A stretch of DNA of 47,348 bases from NCBI RefSeq assembly GCF_000520595.1, contig NZ_KI914978.1, positions 184,611 through 231,958 of the forward strand, written 5' to 3'. A program made the translations under genes and the position numbers. Shown here piece by piece: positions 10,807-28,323 of the stretch. The stretch's first letter is position 1. Each line of letters begins with the position of its first letter. The notes below the pieces were generated by a model. It worked only from the letters and a program-made list of their open reading frames with translations, made no database searches and had not been told where the DNA came from. The DNA comes from Arthrobacter sp. H5. Lineage in GTDB: Bacteria; Actinomycetota; Actinomycetes; Actinomycetales; Micrococcaceae.

Positions 10807-11040
10807 ATGCGAGAACAATTTCTGAACGCCACCGTCACACGAAAGCGGGATTACGGCCGCCAGTACGAGTATCTGGTACTCACGGTCAACGCTGGTGAAC
10901 CACTGCCGGCGGCGCGCCAGCTCATCACCGAACACGCCGAGTACGGCAAGTGGGAACTTGAGCGAAGTTGTATCTACATCGGTGGGAATCGACGCTTCTG
11001 GCTGCGCCGGAAAGTGCTTCGGGTGGAGCGCACCGCCTGA
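10807..11040 (+). CDS. DUF5703 family protein
   Basis: A 77-residue protein that I recognise as DUF5703, a small actinobacterial family with no assigned role. It is rich in aromatic and basic residues (RKRDYGRQYEYLVLTVNAG, then WELERSCIYIGGNRRFW and LRRKVLRVERTA), which suggests a compact beta fold. A strong GGAGGG lies 4 nt before the ATG at 10807, so this one has a conventional leader; TAAAGT near 10783 is a possible -10 box. It is convergent with the acyl-CoA dehydrogenase-like gene, 13 bp away, with no clear terminator between them. Confidence 0.8.
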   Translation: MREQFLNATVTRKRDYGRQYEYLVLTVNAGEPLPAARQLITEHAEYGKWELERSCIYIGGNRRFWLRRKVLRVERTA

Positions 11041-16222: not shown

Positions 16223-16224
16223 TG

Positions 16225-16308
16225 TGCGCGGAGGGGGACTTGAACCCCCACCCTCAATAAGAGGACTAGCACCTCAAGCTAGCGCGTCTGCCATTCCGCC
16301 ACCCGCGC
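16225..16308 (-). tRNA. tRNA-Leu, anticodon GAG
   Basis: An 84-nt type II tRNA read on the minus strand. The acceptor stem GCGCGGG pairs with TCCGCGC (one G-T pair), followed by A73; CCA is not encoded. The D arm reads GCGGAATGGCAGACGC. The anticodon stem CTAGC/GCTAG holds the loop TTGAGGT, giving anticodon GAG, which reads CTC and CTT Leu codons. A long variable arm and the T arm GGGGGTTCAAGTCCCCC complete the fold. Confidence 0.97.
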
Positions 16309-16388: not shown

Positions 16389-17624
16389 TCAGTCGCCTCG
16401 GGGAAGGCGGTCCGCGATCGCGCGGATACCAGTATAGGTCTCCTCGAAGGACGTCGACAACGGCGAAAGACCCAGGCGCAAGCCGTTGGGGTTCCGGTAG
16501 TCGGGGATAATCCCCTCAGCCCAGAGACCGGGGAGCAGACCGGCGAATGCAGGGTGGTCAATGGTGATGTGACTGCCCCGCAGGTCCGGGTCACGCGGCG
16601 AAGCGATGACGACGCCGGCCTCCCCCATCAGCGACTCCACCGCGTCCACGGCAAAAGCGGTCAATGCCATCGATTTGCGGCGGACAGCGTCGAGCCCAAC
16701 CTCAGCCAGCAGTCCCAGCATGTCCTGCACCGCGAGCATGCCCACTATGGGCGGCGTTCCCGATACGATCCGCCGGATCCCTTCCGCGGGCTCGTAGGCC
16801 GCACCCATGGCAAACGGGTTGGCGCTGCCCAGCCACCCGTGGATCGGTTGCTCAAAGCCGGCCAGGTGCCGCTCCGCAACGTACGCCCAGGCCGGGGCTC
16901 CCGGCCCGCCGTTGAGGTATTTATAGCTGCAGCCCACCGCGTAGTCCACATCCCAGTCGTCCAACTCCACTGGAACCGAACCAACCGAGTGACTCAGGTC
17001 CCACAGTGCCAGCGCACCGGATTGGTGGACCACCTCGGTGATTCGCTGGACATCTGCAATATGGGCGGACCGGTACGCCACATGGCTCAGCACCACGAGC
17101 GCGGTATCCGGCCCCACTGCAGCCGCGACCCCGGCAGCTGTGGCCCCGCCGTCGTAGGCCACATCTATCCACCGCAGCCGCAATCCACGGTCGCGGGCAA
17201 TGCCCTCCATGATGAAGCGGTCGGTGGGGAAATTGTCCCGGTCCAGCACTATTTCGGTGCGGCCCGGACGGGCTTCCAGTGCAGCCCTGCCCAGCTTGTA
17301 CAGCAACACGCTGGTGGAGTCAGCGATGATGCACTGCCCTGGAGCAGCGCCGAGTGCAACGCGCCCCAACGTGTCACCGACCTGGCCGGGCAGCTCCAGC
17401 CAGCCGTCATCCCAGCCGCGGATCAGCTTCCCCGCCCATTCCTCCCTGACGAAGGTGGTCAGCCGCTCCATTGTTGCCGTCAGCGGCCGTCCGAGGGAAT
17501 TTCCATCGAGGTAGGCAGGTATCGCTGGGTTGTCGTGACCTTCAAAGCGCTGCCGATAGCCTGCCAGCGGGTCGGTGGCATCAAGGTGGCGTGCGCGCAG
17601 CAGCCAGGGATCGTCGTCGTTCAT
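16389..17624 (-). CDS. kynU: Kynureninase
   Basis: PLP enzyme that splits kynurenine to anthranilate and alanine in tryptophan breakdown. The 411-residue product shows the family order: AYLDGNSLGRPL near 37-48, EEWAGKLIRGWDDGW (60-75), the phosphate-binding DSTSVLLYK (102-110), LSHVAYRSAHI (179-189), the PLP-ring Asp in LWDLSHSVGSVP (Asp209), and the Schiff-base Lys in CSYKYLNGGPG (Lys235). No tryptophan dioxygenase or formamidase gene is adjacent, so the partner enzymes are elsewhere or the enzyme serves scavenging. ATG at 17624 lies 6 nt after TAGAAT (17636-17631), which suggests a leaderless mRNA. Confidence 0.94.
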   Translation of the reverse strand: MNDDDPWLLRARHLDATDPLAGYRQRFEGHDNPAIPAYLDGNSLGRPLTATMERLTTFVREEWAGKLIRGWDDGWLELPGQVGDTLGRVALGAAPGQCIIADSTSVLLYKLGRAALEARPGRTEIVLDRDNFPTDRFIMEGIARDRGLRLRWIDVAYDGGATAAGVAAAVGPDTALVVLSHVAYRSAHIADVQRITEVVHQSGALALWDLSHSVGSVPVELDDWDVDYAVGCSYKYLNGGPGAPAWAYVAERHLAGFEQPIHGWLGSANPFAMGAAYEPAEGIRRIVSGTPPIVGMLAVQDMLGLLAEVGLDAVRRKSMALTAFAVDAVESLMGEAGVVIASPRDPDLRGSHITIDHPAFAGLLPGLWAEGIIPDYRNPNGLRLGLSPLSTSFEETYTGIRAIADRLPRGD

Positions 17625-17714: not shown

Positions 17715-18671
17715 CTACCGGTTGGACGCGCTGGTGTACGCCTGCTGGATGGACGAACCGAAGTACGGCCCGTACATGACGTTCTTCTGCGAGGTGTAAC
17801 CAAAGCTGTTGACGGAGTTCTGGGTTCCACCCGAACCTGATCCAACAAACCATGGGCCGCCGGAGGATCCACCGGTCATGTCGCACGGGATTCCCTGCGA
17901 CTGGGTGCCACCGAGATTGTCCCTGGATGCGGTGCCGTAGCAGCTCTTCAGCGACTCCCCATTGAACGGCGACGCTGCCGGATACCCATAGGCCTTGTAG
18001 GTGAGGTTGCGTGCCATGTTGAAGCCGATGTTGGAGGCACCCACGGTTGCGGCAAGTGTGCGCCCGTTGAGCGGCGCGACCACCGCGAACGCGCCGTCGT
18101 AACTGATGTCGTTGCGTGAGACCCATTCGCTCGTGGAGTGGAGCGACGTGGCGGACCACATCCCGTACGGGGAATTACCATTTTGGTAGCCCGGGACGAA
18201 GACGAATTTGGTGGCCCATCCTGCGCTCAGGTCATGCGTGCAGTGTCCAGCCGTTGCAACGGTGTTCTGGTTGTTGCTGCCCACCGAGTTTGCCGAGCAT
18301 ACGTAGTTCTGGCCGCCAAGGGTGAAGAAGACCTTGCCGATATGGGAGACGGGCGCTTCGCTCGCTGCGCGGAGAGAGGGCTTGTTCTGCGGCGCTTTGA
18401 CAACTTTTTCAGCTCCGCCCTTGGGCATAATCGTGCGGCCTTGGTCCGCCCAGCCCTGCGAATTGATCGAATTGGCGGGCTTCGCGTTCTTCATCCGCTC
18501 GGGTGTCCAGTACGCCTCCAGCGATGCCTGGGACTCGACCTGGGCATGCGACACCGTGGATCCCGCAGCCGGTGCGTCAGGTGCTGCCTGTGCGGCGCCG
18601 CCGGTCATGAGCGCGGATGCCAGCAGCGTGGATGCTGCGAAGACGGCTGCCTTCAAACCTTTTGAGTTCAC
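17715..18671 (-). CDS. Secreted trypsin-like serine protease
   Basis: Exported chymotrypsin-fold (S1/V8-like) endopeptidase. From GTG 18671 the product is 318 residues. It opens with a signal peptide (charged NSKGLK, hydrophobic AAVFAASTLLASALMTGGA, cleavage likely after AQA), then a propeptide-like stretch to about residue 105. The triad is His143 in TAGHC, Asp192 in ISYDGAFAV, and Ser270 in TGGSSGGPW. Three further Cys could form disulfides. GTG is preferred because AGGAG lies 4 nt before it; the ATG at 18683 (four residues longer) has no ribosome site, and the AGGAG falls inside it. The gene stands alone with its own strong terminator. Confidence 0.9.
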   Translation of the reverse strand: MNSKGLKAAVFAASTLLASALMTGGAAQAAPDAPAAGSTVSHAQVESQASLEAYWTPERMKNAKPANSINSQGWADQGRTIMPKGGAEKVVKAPQNKPSLRAASEAPVSHIGKVFFTLGGQNYVCSANSVGSNNQNTVATAGHCTHDLSAGWATKFVFVPGYQNGNSPYGMWSATSLHSTSEWVSRNDISYDGAFAVVAPLNGRTLAATVGASNIGFNMARNLTYKAYGYPAASPFNGESLKSCYGTASRDNLGGTQSQGIPCDMTGGSSGGPWFVGSGSGGTQNSVNSFGYTSQKNVMYGPYFGSSIQQAYTSASNR

Positions 18672-18800
18672 GAAACTCCTCATTCCATTCAGTAAAGGAA
18701 ACGCCAGTGGTAACTGACTTCATGGAGTGTGCACTGTTTGCGGGCTGGTTCACAGTGAAAACGGCCAATTCGCCGAAAACAGTCTGAAAATAGCCTGGAC

Positions 18801-19733
18801 CTATGGACAAGCTGAAGGCGCTATGGAATTATTTCCGTTTTCCAGCATTTCGAGGCGGCCGGTGAAGCAGGTACGACGACGACGCGGGTCCCAGGCAATC
18901 ACGTCGGTACCGCGCCAACTGTCCCCGCTGCGGTGTTCGGAGACGGCAAGCGAGATCCTGCCCGGCAGTGGAACAGGAGAAACAAAGTCAATAGACCAGC
19001 GCAGCCCTTCCACGCCCCGTCCGGCAACCTCCGCGACCATCCGGGATGCGAGGTACATCCCGTGTGCTATGGGTTGCTTCAGTCCGAGAGCCCTCGCGGG
19101 CAGGGTGCCCAGGTGAATGGGATTGTAATCGCCTGACACTCCAGCGTAGCGGCGGCCGGTGTCCGCTGATAAATTCCAAACCGCGGTCGGATGGGGCGGA
19201 TTGAAGCCCGGTTTTTCATTCGATGCCGGTTGAACTGGATTCTCCCCCAGCCGCACGCCCCTGGCCAAATAGGTGGAGCGCCCAATCCAGGCTGGCGTTC
19301 CGACTGATGCCACGCTTGTCAGCAGGTCGACTTGGGTACCGGCCCGGTGGGGGCGCAGATTTTCAGCCCAGGCACTGATCTCCAACGGTTGTCCGGCCGG
19401 GATGGCACAAAGATGATCCACCTCGTTTCCCACGTGAACCATTCCGAGCAGCGGCAGGGGGAAGTCCGTCCGCGCCATAATGCTCATAGCCAGGGGAAAG
19501 GCCACAGTGTGCACAAATCCGGAGGGTAGGTTGTCCACGGACGGAGGCTGGCCCAGCATACGCTGGAAGTCACCCAGGGCGGTGTCTGCCGGCTTCACTC
19601 CCGCGGCGCTGAGTACCGTGTCCGGCAGCTCTGCCGCCTGGCGTCTTCGCCCGAGCCTCGAACGGGCACCACGTACCAGGGCCTGACCGTACACGGCGGG
19701 CAGCGATGGCATCCGGCCGGCCTGCAAGGCCAT
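18801..19733 (-). CDS. MaoC-family (R)-specific enoyl-CoA hydratase, HtdX-like
   Basis: Double hot-dog hydratase of 310 residues that adds water to trans-2-enoyl thioesters to give (R)-3-hydroxyacyl thioesters. The hydratase-2 motif is YAGVSGDYNPIH (196-207), with Asp and His as the catalytic pair, followed by AHGMYLASRM. The N-terminal half (50-165) is the second, non-catalytic hot-dog domain. The ATG at 19733 overlaps the stop of the FabG4-like gene by 1 nt (TGATG), which fixes the start; reading further upstream in this frame only crosses that gene. The order matches mycobacterial htdX-fabG4-fadA2 (Rv0241c-Rv0243). It is the last gene of the minus-strand lipid operon. Confidence 0.9.
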   Translation of the reverse strand: MALQAGRMPSLPAVYGQALVRGARSRLGRRRQAAELPDTVLSAAGVKPADTALGDFQRMLGQPPSVDNLPSGFVHTVAFPLAMSIMARTDFPLPLLGMVHVGNEVDHLCAIPAGQPLEISAWAENLRPHRAGTQVDLLTSVASVGTPAWIGRSTYLARGVRLGENPVQPASNEKPGFNPPHPTAVWNLSADTGRRYAGVSGDYNPIHLGTLPARALGLKQPIAHGMYLASRMVAEVAGRGVEGLRWSIDFVSPVPLPGRISLAVSEHRSGDSWRGTDVIAWDPRRRRTCFTGRLEMLENGNNSIAPSACP

Positions 19734-21073
19734 CAGGCACCCACCAGGCTTTGTCCGCAGACGCGTAGTACCTGGCCGTTGATTCCGCCAGCCGCATCGG
19801 TGGCGAGGAACGCAATGGTTTCCGCCACGTCGACGGGCAGTCCGCCCTGCTGCAGACTGCTCAGGCGCCGCGCCACCTCGCGCGTCCCGAACGGAATTCT
19901 CGCCGTCATCTCGGTTTCGATGAATCCAGGTGCGACGGCGTTGATGGTGCGGTTCCCGCCGTCCAGGACACGGGCCGTACATTCCACCATGCCGATGACA
20001 CCGGCCTTGGAAGCCGCGTAGTTGCTTTGCCCCCTGTTGCCTGCGATCCCGCTGGTGGAGGCCAGGCATACTATTTTTCCGATATCGGAGAAGACAGTGG
20101 ATTCCAGCAATTCGGCGTTGATTGCCAATTGTGCAGCAAGGTTGACGGCAATGACCTGGTTCCACTTTGCCTCGTCCATATTGGCGAGCAGCTTGTCCCG
20201 GGTAATGCCCGCATTGTGCACAAGAATGTCCAGTTGGCCATGGCGGTCACGTACGTGGTCGATAATCCGCTGCGCCGCTTCGGGCCGCGTGATGTCGAGC
20301 TGCAGCGCGGTGGCACCGGTCTGGTTGGCGACCTTCATCAACTGCTCGCCGGCGGCGGGTACATCCACCACGACGATCTGCGCGCCGTCCCTCCTGAGGA
20401 CGGAAGCGATTTCCGCGCCGATCCCGCGGGCCGCACCGGTAACAACTGCAATTTTGCCTGCCAGGGGCTTTGCCACAACTGCCGGAAGCTCTCCCCGGTC
20501 CGATGTCACGGAAATGAATTGTCCATTGACAAAAGCGCTCCTGCCGGACAGGAGAAAGCGCAGGGCCCCCACCGCACTCGTGGTATCAATACCAACACCG
20601 TCGCCAAGGACGATTCCGTTGGCGGTCGCACCCCCGCGCAGCTCGCGCGCGATCGACCGTACCGCCCCATCCACCGCACGTCTGGCGGCAGCTTCAGCAG
20701 GATCCACTGTGCCCGCCACCGTTCTGGACACACTGACAACCCTGGCACCTCGAGCGAGCTGGCGGATGGACTGACCAAGTTCCAGCATGACCGCCGAGAG
20801 CGCATCGGGATGAGTGACCGAGTCCAGGACCGCGATGACAGCGCCGATCCTCTCCTTCGGCTGTGCATGGCGCCGAACGTCCTGGTTCCATCCCAGCAGC
20901 ACCTCGGCTACTGTGTCGGCTCCGGCGCCGTTTCCCAGCACCAGCACTGGGCCGGGTATCAGCGGCGCGCCGGACTGGTAGCGGCGTAGGGGCACTGGGA
21001 GAGGCAATCCCAGCGCCTTGGCGACTCTGCCGGCGGGCACTGAATTGACAAGCTGAAGGTAGGAGTCCGACAT
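19733..21073 (-). CDS. FabG4-like high-molecular-weight 3-oxoacyl reductase / 3-hydroxyacyl-CoA dehydrogenase
   Basis: Short-chain dehydrogenase of 446 residues interconverting 3-oxoacyl and (R)-3-hydroxyacyl thioesters. Residues 1-200 form the extra flavodoxin-like N-terminal domain typical of FabG4 (Rv0242c, 454 residues). The reductase domain follows: TGAARGIG (212-219), HNAGITRD (286-293), the Ser of CLASTSGI (near 339), and the active-site YAASK (352-356). ATG at 21073 lies 2 bp after the thiolase stop; the frame remains open upstream only into the thiolase gene. FabG4 of mycobacteria uses NADH, which suits oxidation in fatty-acid breakdown. The gene sits between thiolase and hydratase in one operon. 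Confidence 0.92.
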   Translation of the reverse strand: MSDSYLQLVNSVPAGRVAKALGLPLPVPLRRYQSGAPLIPGPVLVLGNGAGADTVAEVLLGWNQDVRRHAQPKERIGAVIAVLDSVTHPDALSAVMLELGQSIRQLARGARVVSVSRTVAGTVDPAEAAARRAVDGAVRSIARELRGGATANGIVLGDGVGIDTTSAVGALRFLLSGRSAFVNGQFISVTSDRGELPAVVAKPLAGKIAVVTGAARGIGAEIASVLRRDGAQIVVVDVPAAGEQLMKVANQTGATALQLDITRPEAAQRIIDHVRDRHGQLDILVHNAGITRDKLLANMDEAKWNQVIAVNLAAQLAINAELLESTVFSDIGKIVCLASTSGIAGNRGQSNYAASKAGVIGMVECTARVLDGGNRTINAVAPGFIETEMTARIPFGTREVARRLSSLQQGGLPVDVAETIAFLATDAAGGINGQVLRVCGQSLVGA

Positions 21074-21075
21074 GG

Positions 21076-22401
21076 CTACCGCGCCTCCAGGATGGCAACG
21101 ACGCCCTGTCCGCCTGCTGCGCACACCGAGATCAGGCCGCGGCCTGAGCCCTTTTCCGCCAGTGTTTTTGCAAGTGATGCGACAATCCGGCCACCTGTGG
21201 CCGCGAAGGGATGGCCGGCGGCAAGTGATGAGCCGTTGACATTGAGCCTGTTGCGGTCAACGCTTCCCAGCGCACCGTCCAGGCCAAGCTGGCTTCGGCA
21301 GAAATCCTCGTCCTCCCAGGCTGCGAGGGCGCTGAGGACAGTCCCGGCAAACGCTTCATGGATCTCAAAGAAATCGAAATCAGCAAACGTCAGGTTGTTG
21401 CGCTGAAGCAGGCGGGGCATCGCGTAAACCGGCGCCATGAGCAACCCTTCCGCCCCGTGGACAAAGTCGACAGCTGCCGCTTCTGCATCGACCACGTTCG
21501 CCAGCATGGGCAGATTGTGGGAGCGGGCGTACTCCTCAGACCCGAGCAGCACGGTTGACGCGCCATCAGTGAGCGGCGTGGAGTTACCGGCGGTCATGGT
21601 TGGTTCGGCCGTGAGGTTCTTGCCAAAGACCGGCTTCAGCGAGCCCAGTTTCTCCAGCGATGTATCCGCCCTGAGGTTGGCGTCACGCGTCAGGCCGCGG
21701 TGGGGAGTGATGAGATCGGAGAAGAAATCCCGCTCGTAGGCTGCAGCCAGATTATGGTGGCTGGCCAGCGCGAGTTCGTCCTGGGATGTGCGGCTGATGT
21801 TCCAGCGGGCGGTGGTGATGGCCTGATGTTCTCCCATCGACAGCCCCGTGCGCGGCTCTGCGGTGTTGGGCGCGTCGGGTGCAAGATCCGCTGGCCTCAG
21901 CCTGCTGATTGCGACAAGTTTCTGTCTGGTGGTCTTGGCGCGGGAGAGGTCCAGCAGCACGCGCCGCAGTCCCTCGCTGACCGCAATGGGTGCGTCGGAC
22001 GCGGAGTCGACTCCGCCCGCGATCCCCGATTCGATCTGCCCGAGCTTAATCTTGTTAGCCAGCCCAACGACGGTTTCGAGGCCGGTGGCGCATGCCTGCT
22101 GCAGGTCATAGACCGGTGTATCCGGCGCGAGGGCCGATCCCAGCACCGCTTCACGGGTCAGGTTGAAATCGCGGGAATGTTTCAGGACGGCGCCGGCAGC
22201 AACCTGTCCCACCCGTTCCCCCTGCAGGCCGAATCGTGCCACCAAACCGTCGATCGCCGCCGTCAGCATGTCCTTGTTGGAGGAGTATGCATAAGCTCCC
22301 CCCGACCGTGCGAACGGGATTCTGTTGCCCCCAATGACCACTGCGCTGCGGATGGGACTGCCGGGCTGCGCGGCTCGCGTGCCTTCTGCCTGTTCGGACA
22401 T
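21076..22401 (-). CDS. Acetyl-CoA acetyltransferase (thiolase), FadA2-like
   Basis: Thiolase of 441 residues that cleaves 3-oxoacyl-CoA to acetyl-CoA and a shortened acyl-CoA. The acyl-acceptor Cys is in DLQQACATGLE (Cys104). The His of EIHEAFAG, the GHPFAATGG segment and the second Cys of SVCAAGGQG complete the active site, so all catalytic residues are present. ATG at 22401 is chosen because AGGAG lies 9 nt upstream; a longer frame runs back across the promoter into the TetR gene. Length and order match FadA2 (Rv0243, 440 residues). It is the first gene of the thiolase, reductase, hydratase operon controlled from the palindrome at 22436-22466. Confidence 0.93.
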   Translation of the reverse strand: MSEQAEGTRAAQPGSPIRSAVVIGGNRIPFARSGGAYAYSSNKDMLTAAIDGLVARFGLQGERVGQVAAGAVLKHSRDFNLTREAVLGSALAPDTPVYDLQQACATGLETVVGLANKIKLGQIESGIAGGVDSASDAPIAVSEGLRRVLLDLSRAKTTRQKLVAISRLRPADLAPDAPNTAEPRTGLSMGEHQAITTARWNISRTSQDELALASHHNLAAAYERDFFSDLITPHRGLTRDANLRADTSLEKLGSLKPVFGKNLTAEPTMTAGNSTPLTDGASTVLLGSEEYARSHNLPMLANVVDAEAAAVDFVHGAEGLLMAPVYAMPRLLQRNNLTFADFDFFEIHEAFAGTVLSALAAWEDEDFCRSQLGLDGALGSVDRNRLNVNGSSLAAGHPFAATGGRIVASLAKTLAEKGSGRGLISVCAAGGQGVVAILEAR

Positions 22402-22442
22402 GCGGAGATGCTCCTGCTCTGTGGGGATAATTACCGATACCA

Positions 22443-22448
22443 AGCGTA
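22443..22448 (-). promoter_or_regulatory. -10 box of the thiolase operon
   Basis: TACGCT on the minus strand with TTCACG as a -35 candidate 17 nt upstream (22471-22466). The start of transcription would fall near 22435, giving a leader of about 34 nt with AGGAG. Confidence 0.5.
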
Positions 22449-22453
22449 CCTGA

Positions 22454-22459
22454 TACGCT
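22454..22459 (+). promoter_or_regulatory. -10 box of the leaderless tetR-acyl-CoA oxidase operon
   Basis: TACGCT with TTACCG as a -35 candidate exactly 17 nt upstream (22431-22436), followed by 7 nt and the GTG at 22467. Confidence 0.5.
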
Positions 22460-22466
22460 CGGTATC

Positions 22467-23216
22467 GTGAACGAAACCGCACGAACCAATTCCGCAGCCG
22501 CGTCCGACGGACGCTCAAGCCGCTGGGCAGCGCACCGCGCCACCCGTCGTCGTGCGTTGATCAAAGCCGCCCGGCGCGCCGTCCACAGGCTCGGCCACGG
22601 CGCATCCATGGAGGACATCGCGATGGCCGCGGAAACCTCGAAGTCCGTGTATTACAGGTACTTCGGCGACAAGGCAGGGCTTCAGCAGGCCATGGGTGAG
22701 GTGGTGATCGGCCAGATGCAGGCACATCTGCTGGATGCCGCCCGACAGGCAGCCACACCGAGGGACGGCCTCCGGGCTATGGTATCCGCATACCTGCAGA
22801 TGGCTGAGACGTCACCCAACGTGTACACGTTCGTCACCAGGATCGGTCCGGCGGACGCACTGACCACCGCGGAGGATCCCTCGTCCGAGACGCTCACGCA
22901 CTTCTTCGACGCAATCTCCGCCATGCTGGCCAGGCCCATGCAGCGGTACCTTTCCTCGGCCGGTGAAGCATCGCGGATCGCGCCGCCGTCGCTGCAATTC
23001 TGGCCGCGGGCCGCAATCGGGATGGTCCGCGCGGCCGGCGAGCTGTGGTTGGCTACCCCACCCGGGCCTTACCGGCCCACCGAAGAACAAATGACTGACC
23101 AGCTGACCGGCTGGCTGTGTGAGGGAATCACACCCCAGGTATCGCCGGCAGCAGCCGGCCAACCCGCTGAGCACACCGCTCAGCGAACTATTCCGGATCC
23201 GAAGGACAACCAATGA
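22467..23216 (+). CDS. TetR-family transcriptional regulator
   Basis: A 249-residue repressor. The helix-turn-helix is at about 46-66 (ASMEDIAMAAETSKSVYYRY), after a basic N-terminal arm. The ligand-binding domain fills the rest, with a long Pro/Ala-rich tail after 205. GTG at 22467 lies 7 nt after the -10 box and directly abuts the palindrome, so it probably represses itself, the acyl-CoA oxidase that follows (ATGA overlap at 23213) and the divergent thiolase operon. An acyl-CoA is the likely inducer by analogy with other TetR regulators of fatty-acid breakdown; that is inference. Confidence 0.9.
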   Translation: MNETARTNSAAASDGRSSRWAAHRATRRRALIKAARRAVHRLGHGASMEDIAMAAETSKSVYYRYFGDKAGLQQAMGEVVIGQMQAHLLDAARQAATPRDGLRAMVSAYLQMAETSPNVYTFVTRIGPADALTTAEDPSSETLTHFFDAISAMLARPMQRYLSSAGEASRIAPPSLQFWPRAAIGMVRAAGELWLATPPGPYRPTEEQMTDQLTGWLCEGITPQVSPAAAGQPAEHTAQRTIPDPKDNQ

Positions 23217-25309
23217 CCCAGACCTCCATGACCCCTCCGGAACTCGAAGTTCCGGCAACAATGACCATTGCGGACAATGATCAGGCAGTGGTGAATGTTG
23301 CCGCCCTTGGCGAGCAGCTCCTGGGCCGCTGGGCGGCCACGAGGAGGACAGCCCGCGAGCTGGCCGGCCGGCCGGAAGTACACCGGATTGAGGGACTCTC
23401 CCCAGCCGAGCACCGGGTACGGTGCTTTGACCAGCTCCATTACCTGGTGGAGCATCAGGCCGTCCACCGGGCATTTCCCGCTGCACTCGGAGGATCGGAC
23501 GACCATGGCGGCAACATCGCCGGGTTCGAGGAACTTGTGGTCGCTGATCCGTCGCTGCAGATCAAGGCGGGCGTGCAGTGGGGCCTATTTGGGGCAGCCG
23601 TGCTGCACCTGGGCACGGCAGAGCATCACCAGGCCTGGCTGCCGGGAATCATGAACATGGAAATACCCGGCTGTTTTGCGATGACTGAAACCGGCCATGG
23701 GTCCGACGTCGCCAGCATCGCCACAACCGCTGTCTTCGACCCGCACACCCAGGAATTCGTCATCCACACACCGTTCCGTGCAGCCTGGAAGGATTACATC
23801 GGCAACGCGGCAGTCGATGGCAGGGCCGCCGTGGTGTTCGCGCAACTGATCACCCAGGGCGTCAATCACGGTGTGCACGCCTTCTATGTGGAACTGCGGG
23901 AGCGCTCCGGCGACTTCCTCCCGGGCATCGGCGGTGAGGACAACGGACTCAAGGGCGGACTGAACGGCATCGACAACGGCCGGCTGCACTTCACACAGGT
24001 ACGCATTCCGCGCACCAATCTGCTCAACCGTTACGGAAACGTGGACGACGACGGCACTTACACTTCCACGATCGCCTCACCCGGGCGGAGGTTCTTCACG
24101 ATGCTCGGGACCCTGGTCCAGGGACGCGTGTCCCTCGACGGCGCAGCGGTGGCGGTGAGCAAACTCGCACTCAAGACAGCGGTTCAGTACGCAACCGAAC
24201 GCCGGCAGTTCAACGCTGCCTCAGACCTCACGGAGGAAGTGCTGATGGATTACCAGCGGCACCAGCGCCGCCTCCTGCCACTCGTCGCCGCGACCTATGC
24301 GACATCCTTCGCCCATGAAGAACTGCTCGAGAAGCTCAACGGCGTCTTCTCCGGCGAACATGACTCCGATGAAGACCGGCAGGACCTTGAAACCCTCGCG
24401 GCCGCGCTGAAGCCCCTCTCCACCTGGCACGCCCTCAACACCCTTCAGGAATGCCGCGAAGCCTGCGGCGGGGCAGGATTCCTGACCGAAAACCGGTTTA
24501 CCTCGCTGCGGGCGGATCTGGATATCTACACGACGTTTGAGGGCGATAACAACGTCCTGCTTCAACTTGTGGCCAAGCGGCTGCTCGCGGACTTCGCCAA
24601 TGAGTTCCGCGGCGTGGACTTTGGCGTGCTTGCCCGTTACGTGGTCACGCAGGCCGCGGAAAGAACCATTCACCGGACCGGGCTTCGCCGGGTGCTGCAA
24701 TCCGTGGTCGACACAGGTTCCGAGAAGAAATCAGCGATAGCGCTGCGGGATGAGAATACCCAGCATGAGCTATTGTGCGGACGTGTTGAATCCATGGTCA
24801 GTGAACTGGCGGGTGAACTGCGCGGTGCCCGCAGGATGCCCCAGGCGAAGGCGGCCGCACTGTTCAACGAACACCAGAATGAGTTGATTGATACGGCGCG
24901 GGCGCACGCTGAACTTCTGCAGTGGGAAGCGTTCACCGCGGCGCTCAAGCAGACCGGGGATCCGGGCACCAAGCAGGTACTTACCTGGCTGCGGGACCTG
25001 TTCGGGTTGACCCTGATCGAGAACAACCTCGCCTGGTATTTGATGCACGGCAGGCTGTCTGCACAGCGCGCACGCACACTTGGCCCGTACATTAATCGTT
25101 TGCTCGCCAAGCTGCGCCCGCACTCTGTCGATCTGGTGGACGCTTTCGGGTATGGTCCCGAGCACATCCGGATGGCGATTGGAACGGGCGCGGAGAAGGA
25201 GCGCCAGGATGAGGCAATGGCGTATGCACGACGCCAGCGCGCCAGCGGCGATTCACCTATCGACGAGAAGACGCTTATTGCCCGTCGTGAGAAGGCTGAC
25301 GCCTCCTGA
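23213..25309 (+). CDS. Acyl-CoA oxidase-like enzyme (acyl-CoA dehydrogenase superfamily)
   Basis: A 698-residue flavoprotein for the first step of beta-oxidation. Length and motifs fit acyl-CoA oxidases, not the 380-residue dehydrogenases: MTETGHGSDVASIATTA (157-173), EFVIHTPFRAAWKDYIGN (181-198), HGVHAFYVELRER (219-231), NGIDNGRLHFTQVRIPR (251-267), the QECREACGG segment (412-420) carrying the family's catalytic Glu, and TTFEGDNNVLLQ (440-451). After 460 comes the second helical domain of oxidases. Oxidases pass electrons to O2, giving H2O2. Large mycobacterial FadE5-type dehydrogenases (about 610 residues) are the main alternative. It starts inside the tetR stop (ATGA) and has no clear terminator after it. 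Confidence 0.88.
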   Translation: MTQTSMTPPELEVPATMTIADNDQAVVNVAALGEQLLGRWAATRRTARELAGRPEVHRIEGLSPAEHRVRCFDQLHYLVEHQAVHRAFPAALGGSDDHGGNIAGFEELVVADPSLQIKAGVQWGLFGAAVLHLGTAEHHQAWLPGIMNMEIPGCFAMTETGHGSDVASIATTAVFDPHTQEFVIHTPFRAAWKDYIGNAAVDGRAAVVFAQLITQGVNHGVHAFYVELRERSGDFLPGIGGEDNGLKGGLNGIDNGRLHFTQVRIPRTNLLNRYGNVDDDGTYTSTIASPGRRFFTMLGTLVQGRVSLDGAAVAVSKLALKTAVQYATERRQFNAASDLTEEVLMDYQRHQRRLLPLVAATYATSFAHEELLEKLNGVFSGEHDSDEDRQDLETLAAALKPLSTWHALNTLQECREACGGAGFLTENRFTSLRADLDIYTTFEGDNNVLLQLVAKRLLADFANEFRGVDFGVLARYVVTQAAERTIHRTGLRRVLQSVVDTGSEKKSAIALRDENTQHELLCGRVESMVSELAGELRGARRMPQAKAAALFNEHQNELIDTARAHAELLQWEAFTAALKQTGDPGTKQVLTWLRDLFGLTLIENNLAWYLMHGRLSAQRARTLGPYINRLLAKLRPHSVDLVDAFGYGPEHIRMAIGTGAEKERQDEAMAYARRQRASGDSPIDEKTLIARREKADAS

Positions 25310-25796: not shown

Positions 25797-26990
25797 CTAC
25801 AGCACCGAACGGTAGACCTGCAGGGTGGACTCGGCGATAGAGCCCCAGGAGAAATGCTCCTCCACCCTTCGGCGTCCCGCCTCACCCATGAGACGGGCAC
25901 GCGGCGGGTCTGCCACCAGCGAGTTGACGGCCGACGCGAAGTCATCAACAAACTTCTGCGGATCAATCGGCGTCCCTGTTCCGTCGGTGACCTGTTCCAG
26001 CCCCACCAAGGTTCCAGTGACGCCGTCGTCCACCACTTCCGGAATGCCGCCCGTAGCGCTGGCAACCACCGCCGCGCCACAGGCCATCGCCTCCAGATTG
26101 ACGATGCCGAGCGGCTCGTAGATGGAGGGGCACGCAAATACCGTGGCGTGACTGAGCACCTGGATCAGCTCATGCCTGGGAAGCATGCGCTCGATGAGGA
26201 CAACCGAGCCGCGTTGGGCCCGCAGGTCGTTGATCAGTTGCGCGGTCTCAGCCGCCAGTTCGGGCGTGTCCGCCGCACCCAGACACAAAACCAGCTGGAC
26301 ATCCGTGGGCAGCTGGGCCGCCGCGCGCAGCAGGTAGGGGACGCCCTTTTGCCGGGTGTTCCTCCCGACAAAAACCACTGAAGGACGTGAGGGATCGATG
26401 CCAAGCGCTGTGACGGCGTCGTCGTTTGTGTTGCGTTCCCACTCACTGACATCAATTCCGTTGTGCACCACATGCACCTTGTCCGGATCGACGACCGGGT
26501 AGCAGCGCAGGATGTCACGGCGCATCCCGGCAGACACGGCAATCACGGCGGCTGCCGCCTCGTACGAGGTTTGCTCCGCCCACGAGGACAGGGCGTAGCC
26601 GCCGCCCAGCTGCTCCGCTTTCCAAGGACGCAGTGGTTCCAGGCTGTGGGCGCTGAGGACATGCGGGACGCCGTGGAGCAGCGACGCGAGATGGCCCGCC
26701 ATGTTGGCATACCAGGTGTGTGAGTGCACGACGTCGGCACCGGCCGTATTGCCCAGAATGGACAGATCCGTGCCTAAAGTCTGAACCGCCGCGTTCGCCT
26801 CCTCAAGACCGGGCGGTACGCCATAGGCACGAACCCTCGCACCATGGAATTCTTCCGGACGCGCCGCGCCGAAGCAGTGAACCCGCAGATCCACGTGCCC
26901 GGCCAACACCCGGCTCAGTTCGGCTACGTGGACTCCTGCCCCGCCATAGATCTCCGGGGGAAATTCTTTTGTCACAATGTCTACTCGCAC
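25797..26990 (-). CDS. glgA: GlgA/GlgM-type glucosyltransferase (ADP-glucose dependent, GT4)
   Basis: GT4 glycosyltransferase of 397 residues using ADP-glucose. The N-terminal donor/acceptor loop is KEFPPEIYGGAGVHV (8-22), then SHTWYANMAGHLAS. The C-terminal domain has VFVGRNTRQKGVPYLL and the retaining EX7E segment PSIYEPLGIVNLEAMACG. Databases call this glycogen synthase, but the mycobacterial homologue (Rv1212c, GlgM) makes maltose-1-phosphate for the GlgE pathway, and the length fits that group. GTG at 26990 begins exactly at the conserved start VRVDIVTKEFPP and lies 6 nt after TACGTT, so the mRNA is probably leaderless. It diverges from glgC, which supplies its ADP-glucose. Confidence 0.93.
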   Translation of the reverse strand: MRVDIVTKEFPPEIYGGAGVHVAELSRVLAGHVDLRVHCFGAARPEEFHGARVRAYGVPPGLEEANAAVQTLGTDLSILGNTAGADVVHSHTWYANMAGHLASLLHGVPHVLSAHSLEPLRPWKAEQLGGGYALSSWAEQTSYEAAAAVIAVSAGMRRDILRCYPVVDPDKVHVVHNGIDVSEWERNTNDDAVTALGIDPSRPSVVFVGRNTRQKGVPYLLRAAAQLPTDVQLVLCLGAADTPELAAETAQLINDLRAQRGSVVLIERMLPRHELIQVLSHATVFACPSIYEPLGIVNLEAMACGAAVVASATGGIPEVVDDGVTGTLVGLEQVTDGTGTPIDPQKFVDDFASAVNSLVADPPRARLMGEAGRRRVEEHFSWGSIAESTLQVYRSVL

Positions 26991-26996
26991 GTTTCC

Positions 26997-27002
26997 AACG
27001 TA
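26997..27002 (-). promoter_or_regulatory. -10 box of the leaderless glgA gene
   Basis: TACGTT on the minus strand, 6 nt before the GTG at 26990. Confidence 0.45.
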
Positions 27003-27023
27003 GTGCAGACGGTGCCCTTCATC

Positions 27024-27029
27024 TAGTGT
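27024..27029 (+). promoter_or_regulatory. Possible -10 box of glgC
   Basis: TAGTGT about 50 nt before the glgC ATG, within the 88-bp divergent gap. The leader would carry AGGGGG 8 nt before the ATG. Confidence 0.35.
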
Positions 27030-27078
27030 GAGTCCCACGGGGGTAACACTCAACGACGAGACAGCAGGGGGCTACGCG

Positions 27079-28323
27079 ATGGCGCTGAAGAAAGTATTGG
27101 CTGTGGTTCTGGCAGGCGGCGAAGGCAAGCGGCTGATGCCATTGACTGCAGACCGGGCAAAACCGGCTGTACCCTTCGCGGGCAGCTACCGGCTGATCGA
27201 CTTCGCTCTCTCCAACGTGGTGAACTCCGGCTATCTTCAGATCGTGGTGCTCACGCAGTACAAATCACACAGCCTCGACCGGCACATTTCGGAAACCTGG
27301 CGGATGTCCACCCAGCTGCAGCAGTACATCGCTTCGGTTCCCGCGCAGCAGCGGCGCGGGAAGAGCTGGTTCCTGGGCAGCGCCAACGCCATCTACCAGT
27401 CGTTGAATTTGATCCACGATGCGCGTCCCGACATTGTGGTGGTGATCGGCGCCGACCACGTGTACCGGATGGACTTCGAGCAAATGGTGCAGGCCCACAT
27501 CGAAAGCGGCGCCCCGGTAAGCGTCGCCGCCGTGAGGCAGCCCCTGCACCTCGCTGATCAGTTCGGCGTGATCGAAGTGGACCCTGCCCACCCGGGACGG
27601 ATTGCGGCGTTCGTCGAGAAACCGGAGTCCACACCGGGCCTCCCCGACGATCCGGGCAGCTTCCTGGCCTCAATGGGCAACTATGTGTTCACCACCGATG
27701 CCCTGATCAACGCGCTTGAAGTCGACGCGGAACGCTTGGACACCAAGCACGATATGGGCGGCGACATCATCCCCTACTTCGTCGAGCGCGGAGACGCGGC
27801 GGTTTATGACTTCACCACCAACGTGATCCCGGGTGCAACCGAGCGTGACGGCCAGTACTGGCGCGACGTCGGCACCCTCGACTCCTACTACGACGCCAAC
27901 ATGGACCTCATCTCCCCACTCCCCCTGTTCAACCTCTACAACCTCCGGTGGCCCATCTACACCCGGCAGAGCATTTCACCACCCGCCAAGTTTGTCCGCA
28001 GTGCGTCCGGCGGCGCAGGCGTGGCCCATGATTCCATCGTGTCGAGCGGCGTGGTGGTCTCGGGAGGCAGCATCCAGCAATCAATACTCGCGACGGATGT
28101 TTTCGTGGACGAGGGCGCCGACATATCGGGATCAGTTCTCCTGGACAACGTCACCGTTGGGCCCGGAGCGGTGGTGCGCAAGGCCATCATTGACAAGAAC
28201 GTGCGCATACCCGCCGGGGCGACCGTAGGCGTGGACCGCGACCTGGACATCAGCCGCGGTTACACCGTGACGGAGTCCGGACTCACCATTCTCAGCAAGG
28301 GCCAGTCGGTCCAGGGCGGTTAG
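27079..28323 (+). CDS. glgC: Glucose-1-phosphate adenylyltransferase
   Basis: Makes ADP-glucose and pyrophosphate from glucose-1-phosphate and ATP, the committed step of glycogen and maltose-1-phosphate synthesis. The 414-residue product has the nucleotide-binding [14 protein letters not shown] (9-22), [20 protein letters not shown], the [10 protein letters not shown] Asp, the substrate segment FVEKPE, and a C-terminal left-handed beta-helix (from about 300; [34 protein letters not shown]). ATG at 27079 has AGGGGG 8 nt upstream; longer starts have none. The enzyme is normally a tetramer with allosteric control. It abuts the transglutaminase gene tail to tail with no gap. Confidence 0.97.

Follow-up and report, generated by a model that had tools for sequence, protein, structure and literature searches.

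Can a bacterium run beta-oxidation on the plan of the peroxisome, with an oxidase at the front and (R)-hydroxy intermediates in the middle, from one set of adjacent genes? The question is raised by a 6.5-kb divergent locus at 18801-25309 of a 47,348-nucleotide stretch of Arthrobacter sp. H5 (contig NZ_KI914978.1), a stretch that we call the window. Open reading frame (ORF) listing and translation fill the locus with five tightly packed genes. The minus arm encodes an HtdX-type MaoC hydratase, a FabG4-type dehydrogenase and a FadA2-type thiolase, the triad; the plus arm encodes a TetR regulator and then a 698-residue protein. An original prediction described a beta-oxidation locus here. Its ORFs lie where it put them, the motifs it quoted are all present and its four enzymes are borne out, but it left out the TetR gene.

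We think it likely that these genes form a single co-regulated unit for (R)-specific beta-oxidation, with an acyl-CoA oxidase driving it. The support at the level of sequence comes from family identities, intact active sites, a conserved gene order that recurs beyond chance and a conserved palindrome. Two samples are used throughout: a class sample of 296 genomes, and a named sample made up of the best 80 named loci found through the thiolase, for which at least 372 relatives were confirmed.

By family an oxidase, not a FadE5-type dehydrogenase

The 698-residue protein carries both acyl-CoA oxidase (ACOX) domains above curated cut-offs, the C-alpha1 domain (PF22924, 135.7 bits) and the C-terminal domain (PF01756, 72.5 bits). 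No NCBIfam model exceeds its cut-off for this protein or for three relatives. The nine best PDB matches are all acyl-CoA oxidases (E 1e-66 to 1e-47), and the first dehydrogenase appears at 4e-14. Both the (T/C)-x-EG-(D/E)-N loop with the catalytic Glu and the TE-x-GHG motif are present. Glu443, the aligned counterpart of rat Glu421, is kept in 87 of 89 alignment rows, the other two being gaps (here and below, rows are the window protein and fetched relatives).

In our tree the protein sides with eukaryotic acyl-CoA oxidases, apart from FadE5 and the dehydrogenases, across a split with SH-aLRT support of 100. Since the search was short and the dehydrogenase branches are very long, we use the tree solely for this division between oxidases and dehydrogenases. 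The predicted fold places oxidases over every dehydrogenase among the matches listed, so Pfam domains, sequence, tree and fold agree on the oxidase that the original prediction had proposed. A grouping with FadE5-type dehydrogenases was sought and the outcome was the opposite: PDB sequence matches and tree rule out a FadE5-like identity. FadE5 entries are absent from the 59 PDB sequences that the protein matches, and also from the 50 fold-search matches listed, which proves nothing alone. The protein is an acyl-CoA oxidase by family, from which we infer O2 as acceptor and release of H2O2. Suppliers of assay enzymes offer an Arthrobacter acyl-CoA oxidase; our literature search gave no confirmation of this.

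The hydratase, dehydrogenase and thiolase

The remaining enzymes were predicted to be of HtdX, FabG4 and FadA2 type, and Pfam, NCBIfam and the nearest PDB chains all support this. The hydratase passes PF01575 (54.7 bits, cut-off 27) with a match confined to its C-terminal half, and its nearest PDB chains are HtdX (4oob/3wew, E 8e-32). Its motif YAGVSGDYNPIH fits the GDxNPIH catalytic motif of the MaoC domain and carries Asp202 and His207, both kept in 92 of 92 rows. By family its product would be the (R)-hydroxy form. The dehydrogenase matches NF006110 over its full length (597.3 bits, cut-off 410), along with Pfam PF13561 and PF00106. NF006110 is the PRK08261 equivalog, and we call the enzyme FabG4-like by its PDB relatives, which are FabG4 chains (4fw8 at E 4e-110, 5vp5 and others at about 1e-110). 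Ser339, Tyr352, Lys356 and Asp237 are kept in 92 of 93 rows, and the remaining row is a gap.

The thiolase passes NF006740 (743.6 bits, cut-off 539) and Pfam PF00108 and PF02803, with FadA2 7xly as its nearest PDB chain (E 4e-164). Cys104, His348 (in HEAFA), His397 and Cys427 are kept in every one of 93 rows. Its nearest relative, from Arthrobacter, is 86% identical, in a search from which records of the same genome may have been excluded. We take the catalytic roles of the conserved residues in the four enzymes to be those of their families, except for the NAD-type aspartate of the dehydrogenase. A review, in its accessible part, states that one aspartate makes mycobacterial FabG4 NADH-specific, and because the aligned residue, Asp237, is present here the enzyme is predicted to favour NAD(H). 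A paper known through its cited title has HtdX acting in yeast as a 3-hydroxyacyl-thioester dehydratase, and FabG4 and FadA2 are placed among the lipid-inclusion proteins of mycobacteria and rhodococci in the available portion of another (PMC10699116).

A conserved block

FabG4-type matches at E<=1e-60 occur in 83 of the 296 class genomes (81 above the cut-off). By the strong oxidase matches listed, FabG4 lies within a few kb of a strong oxidase in 13 of the 296, the window's genome included, and all 13 have the order MaoC-FabG4-FadA2 facing TetR-ACOX, which we call the block. The window's own order (27 genomes sampled, 14 of them with FabG4) supplies eleven of these, and the other two belong to another family, labelled f15. 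The named sample has the same facing arrangement of triad, TetR and oxidase in 76 of its 80 loci, and for one of these the available stretch shows no MaoC; the four named loci without the block are all titled Corynebacterium. Block genera by record title include Arthrobacter, Pseudarthrobacter, Glutamicibacter, Kocuria, Cellulomonas, Cellulosimicrobium and Brevibacterium.

Two records in these data are probably mislabelled. L130 is titled Vibrio cholerae strain 35D, yet has an Arthrobacter-like block with 82% thiolase identity, and may instead be a contaminated assembly. L181 is titled Sphaerisporangium cinnabarinum and its oxidase groups with Cellulosimicrobium in the tree.

The oxidases of the block form two lineages in the tree (L070-L073, L077-L079 and L182 versus the remaining block loci), one of which is shared with oxidases of other Actinomycetes lying outside such a block. 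This may be replacement in place or plain divergence. Paired oxidase frames lie next to each other in 2 of the 80 named loci, as tandem copies or one split frame.

The regulator and its candidate operator

Within the minus arm the hydratase and dehydrogenase genes overlap by 1 nt and the dehydrogenase and thiolase genes are 2 nt apart; in the plus arm the end of tetR and the start of the oxidase gene share 4 nt. Such overlaps and gaps of at most 2 nt are as expected of two operons. Promoter and terminator scans gave chance level only.

The regulator passes the cut-offs of PF00440 and PF19344. The spacer between the arms holds a palindrome, CGATACCAAGCGTACCTGATACGCTCGGTATCG, that ends at the tetR start codon, and none of 1000 mononucleotide shuffles of the spacer matched its quality. 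When one mismatch is allowed, the core GTATCAGGTAC lies at the fadA2-tetR boundary in every one of the 13 block loci from the class sample, where gene starts were set mechanically, so that in a few loci the core falls within the longest tetR frame. The named sample gives the core between fadA2 and tetR in 75 of 76 block loci, 68 of them exact, when up to 60 nt into either gene is allowed; L182 is without it. There are 11 further core matches in 1.1 Mb outside the interval. At the same tolerance of one mismatch the core is also found at 10869 in the window and once in 28 non-block stretches, in the oxidase frame of L104.

The operator pattern has a single site in the genome of the strain at up to 3 mismatches, which rules out a regulon beyond the locus. 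A 17-bp form (at most 2 mismatches) occurs in 51 of 61 family genomes and is absent from the other 10; it gives 53 matches in all, and the reversed control gives 17. The position of the matches was checked in three genomes. We propose that the palindrome is the operator of the TetR protein. The sequence TACGCT, ending 7 nt before the tetR GTG, could be a -10 box, and tetR may be leaderless.

How the unit would work

In the following scheme O2 as acceptor and the (R) chirality are expected from the protein families, and the oxidative direction and the regulatory behaviour are predictions. The oxidase would desaturate acyl-CoA to trans-2-enoyl-CoA, passing electrons directly to O2 and forming H2O2 with no need of electron transfer flavoprotein (ETF). 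The HtdX-type hydratase would add water to give (3R)-hydroxyacyl-CoA. From this the FabG4-type dehydrogenase would make 3-ketoacyl-CoA, using NAD+ as oxidant, and acetyl-CoA would then be released by the FadA2-type thiolase. TetR, made from the oxidase arm, would bind the palindrome and repress both arms until acyl-CoA or something similar frees it.

This unit would run alongside a classical one. The genome (4.33 Mb, 99.8% complete) encodes, some 150 kb away on the contig that carries the locus, a FadB-type protein (ECH_1, 3HCDH_N, 3HCDH) adjoining a thiolase. Since this FadBA pair is present the locus is a second route, and the idea that it is the cell's sole beta-oxidation is ruled out. The original prediction that the enzymes are not the usual bacterial ones is true of the locus but untrue of the cell. 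FadB domains were checked in this genome; PF02737 matches occur in 29 of 29 genomes but do not serve to count FadB, since that family takes in other dehydrogenases too. The genome has one oxidase, six weaker dehydrogenase matches and no close FadE5. Its two catalases are encoded outside the block, and H2O2 would go to one of them.

A broader proposal is that Micrococcaceae and their relatives have a self-contained counterpart of the peroxisomal system, O2-fed, ETF-independent, working through (R)-hydroxy intermediates under its own TetR and parallel to FadBA, and that the triad is primarily degradative; we regard this as evenly poised. If it is true, the widespread actinobacterial FabG4-HtdX-FadA2 triad is a degradation module that recruited an oxidase as partner in one lineage. 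The role of these three proteins in Actinobacteria is unsettled, and the conserved linkage here points to breakdown rather than elongation. The system would also offer a genetically simple soil bacterium in which to study the peroxisomal plan without the organelle, and how cells deal with H2O2 that they generate in the cytoplasm. The palindrome is a direct handle on its regulation.

Weighing the alternatives

Several observations weigh against an oxidase-driven unit. Family membership does not prove that O2 is the acceptor in vivo, ETF domains are matched at four places in the genome, which form two adjacent pairs, and the predicted model of the oxidase is of middling quality (mean pLDDT 74). 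The five-gene block itself contains neither fadD nor a catalase gene. The linkage of triad and oxidase has its breaks as well. They concern the other three of the 14 FabG4-bearing genomes in the order: two (G081 and G273) keep the triad and TetR with no strong ACOX, and a frame that looks methyltransferase-like by eye comes after TetR; in G030 (L082) triad and oxidase are far apart and fadA2 is divergent from fabG4. FabG4 is missing from all 13 sampled genomes of family f4 (Microbacteriaceae-like, a guess), 12 of which carry a full-length strong oxidase match, the thirteenth having its match split over two contigs. Outside the window's own order and f15, no oxidase match lies near FabG4 among the matches listed for the class sample. 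The presence of FadBA means that the locus may serve special substrates only. Finally, the review, as far as it is accessible, reports that mycobacterial FabG4 reduces four times faster than it oxidises and suggests that FabG4 and HtdX serve elongation.

Related arrangements were seen elsewhere. The five f4 loci placed in the tree have an oxidase without the triad. L084 and L085 have the triad and TetR without an oxidase; they lack the operator core, and the frame behind tetR resembles a methyltransferase by eye.

The alternative that survives best is that the unit is reserved for a particular class of substrate (branched, very long-chain or storage-lipid acyl-CoA, for instance), while FadBA handles the bulk. 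It is compatible with the explanation we favour and would narrow its substrate. FadB beside a thiolase on the same contig and the single operator site in the genome argue for it, but the block holds no substrate clue, and we rate it a serious possibility a little short of an even chance.

Another idea is that the triad is reductive, for acyl-CoA elongation or supply of (R)-3-hydroxyacyl-CoA for other products, and that a separate, catabolic oxidase gene shares its regulator. The leaning of the FabG4 review, with its faster reductase rate, fits this, as does the triad's lack of a nearby oxidase in 70 of the 83 FabG4-bearing Actinomycetes sampled. Against it, a degradative-type thiolase and an oxidase pulling toward breakdown share an operator region, the pairing of triad and oxidase is held in 76 of the 80 named loci, and the NAD-type Asp is conserved; we find this idea unlikely. 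It is similarly improbable that the 698-residue protein has an oxidase fold but works as an ETF-linked dehydrogenase, which would make this an ordinary acyl-CoA dehydrogenase route with (R)-type enzymes in the middle, like the one supposed for FadE5 in mycobacteria. In favour of this, ETF pairs are encoded, O2 reactivity cannot be read from sequence, and ACOX and dehydrogenases have the same fold and, in most of the rows shown, the catalytic Glu in common. Against it, the protein groups with eukaryotic oxidases, away from FadE5 and from the dehydrogenases of its own genome, and it has both ACOX-specific C-terminal domains.

Comparison with known systems

The oxidase-driven unit resembles the peroxisomal MFE-2 system (ACOX, D-bifunctional protein, thiolase), to which the original prediction had likened it. 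The chemistry comes in identical order, the peroxisomal oxidase is homologous across nearly the full length, and the hydratase is also of the MaoC/hydratase-2 family, but a weak match to MFE-2 (3oml, E 0.003). The likeness does not extend to gene fusion, since MFE-2 joins hydratase 2 and dehydrogenase and the locus has separate overlapping ORFs, or to thiolase type, which is closer to FadI (E 2e-76) and TFP-beta (2e-71) than to peroxisomal 1pxt (3e-36). The parts are known and what may be new is the arrangement; the likeness to the peroxisome is one of plan. Classical FadBA, when complemented by an acyl-CoA dehydrogenase, covers the same four net steps with different hydratase and dehydrogenase folds. 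Its crotonase and 3HCDH enzymes give (S)-hydroxy intermediates.

Mycobacterial htdX-fabG4-fadA2 has the same enzyme types as the triad. The 30 best-scoring FabG4 loci in the class sample, none of them from the window's order, all have fadA2 divergent from fabG4-htdX, whereas here the triad is one operon opposite tetR-ACOX. The earlier description of the oxidase as holding the fadE5 place is loose. The sole FadE5 gene found (E 2.5e-274 to 6kpt) is in L093, inferred to be mycobacterial, about 4.4 kb from a fadA2 divergent in this way. BLAST against the Arthrobacter genome's own dehydrogenases finds a dehydrogenase near fadA2 in 2 of 11 FabG4 regions outside the order (L093 and L098 among L092-L102). 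Ten large ORFs of FabG4 and other loci have no Pfam dehydrogenase match, and most of them are probably antisense frames.

Actinobacterial acyl-CoA oxidases outside such a locus are of the same family as this one. Eight lone-oxidase stretches (L103-L110) have no FabG4, FadA2 or MaoC relative beside the oxidase, and L081 has an ordinary 244-aa SDR near it. In the parts available to us, published accounts report relatives of yeast Pox1p in high-GC Gram-positive bacteria (PMC4056328), a Corynebacterium genome with ACOX1 and catalase (PMC4572677), and oxidase activity with a claimed peroxisomal-type system in Geobacillus (PMC2676291). The accessible part of the Corynebacterium variabile genome paper names fadE and fadB genes, with no oxidase mention found there (PMC3219685). 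Among the titles and abstracts listed from the open-licence literature, which takes in few subscription papers, we found no description of the combined locus.

Gene calls and neighbouring genes

Gene starts in Table 1 are our choice of codon. The MaoC ORF of 454 aa begins too early, and the ATG at 19733 is its likely start.

Table 1. Features of the locus, in window coordinates
Feature	Position	Strand	Evidence
HtdX-type MaoC hydratase (hydratase 2), 310 aa	18801..19733	-	PF01575, HtdX PDB matches
FabG4-type high-molecular-weight SDR dehydrogenase, 446 aa	19733..21073	-	NF006110, FabG4 PDB matches
FadA2-type 3-ketoacyl-CoA thiolase, 441 aa	21076..22401	-	NF006740, FadA2 PDB match
33-bp palindrome between divergent arms, proposed TetR operator	22435..22467		shuffles, conservation
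TetR-family regulator, 249 aa, GTG start	22467..23216	+	PF00440, PF19344
Acyl-CoA oxidase, 698 aa	23213..25309	+	Pfam, PDB matches, tree, predicted fold

On one side of the locus are a tRNA-Leu (gag) at 16224-16308 (minus strand), a kynureninase-like protein at 16389-17624 (minus strand; KYNU_C and Aminotran_5 above cut-off) and, at 17715-18683, what by eye is a secreted trypsin-like protease (TAGHC, GGSSGGPW), with no Pfam match. On the other side, 25797-28323 holds a family 4 glycosyltransferase by Pfam, GlgA-like by eye and divergent from a gene that by eye is GlgC-like; the two are possibly a glycogen synthesis pair.

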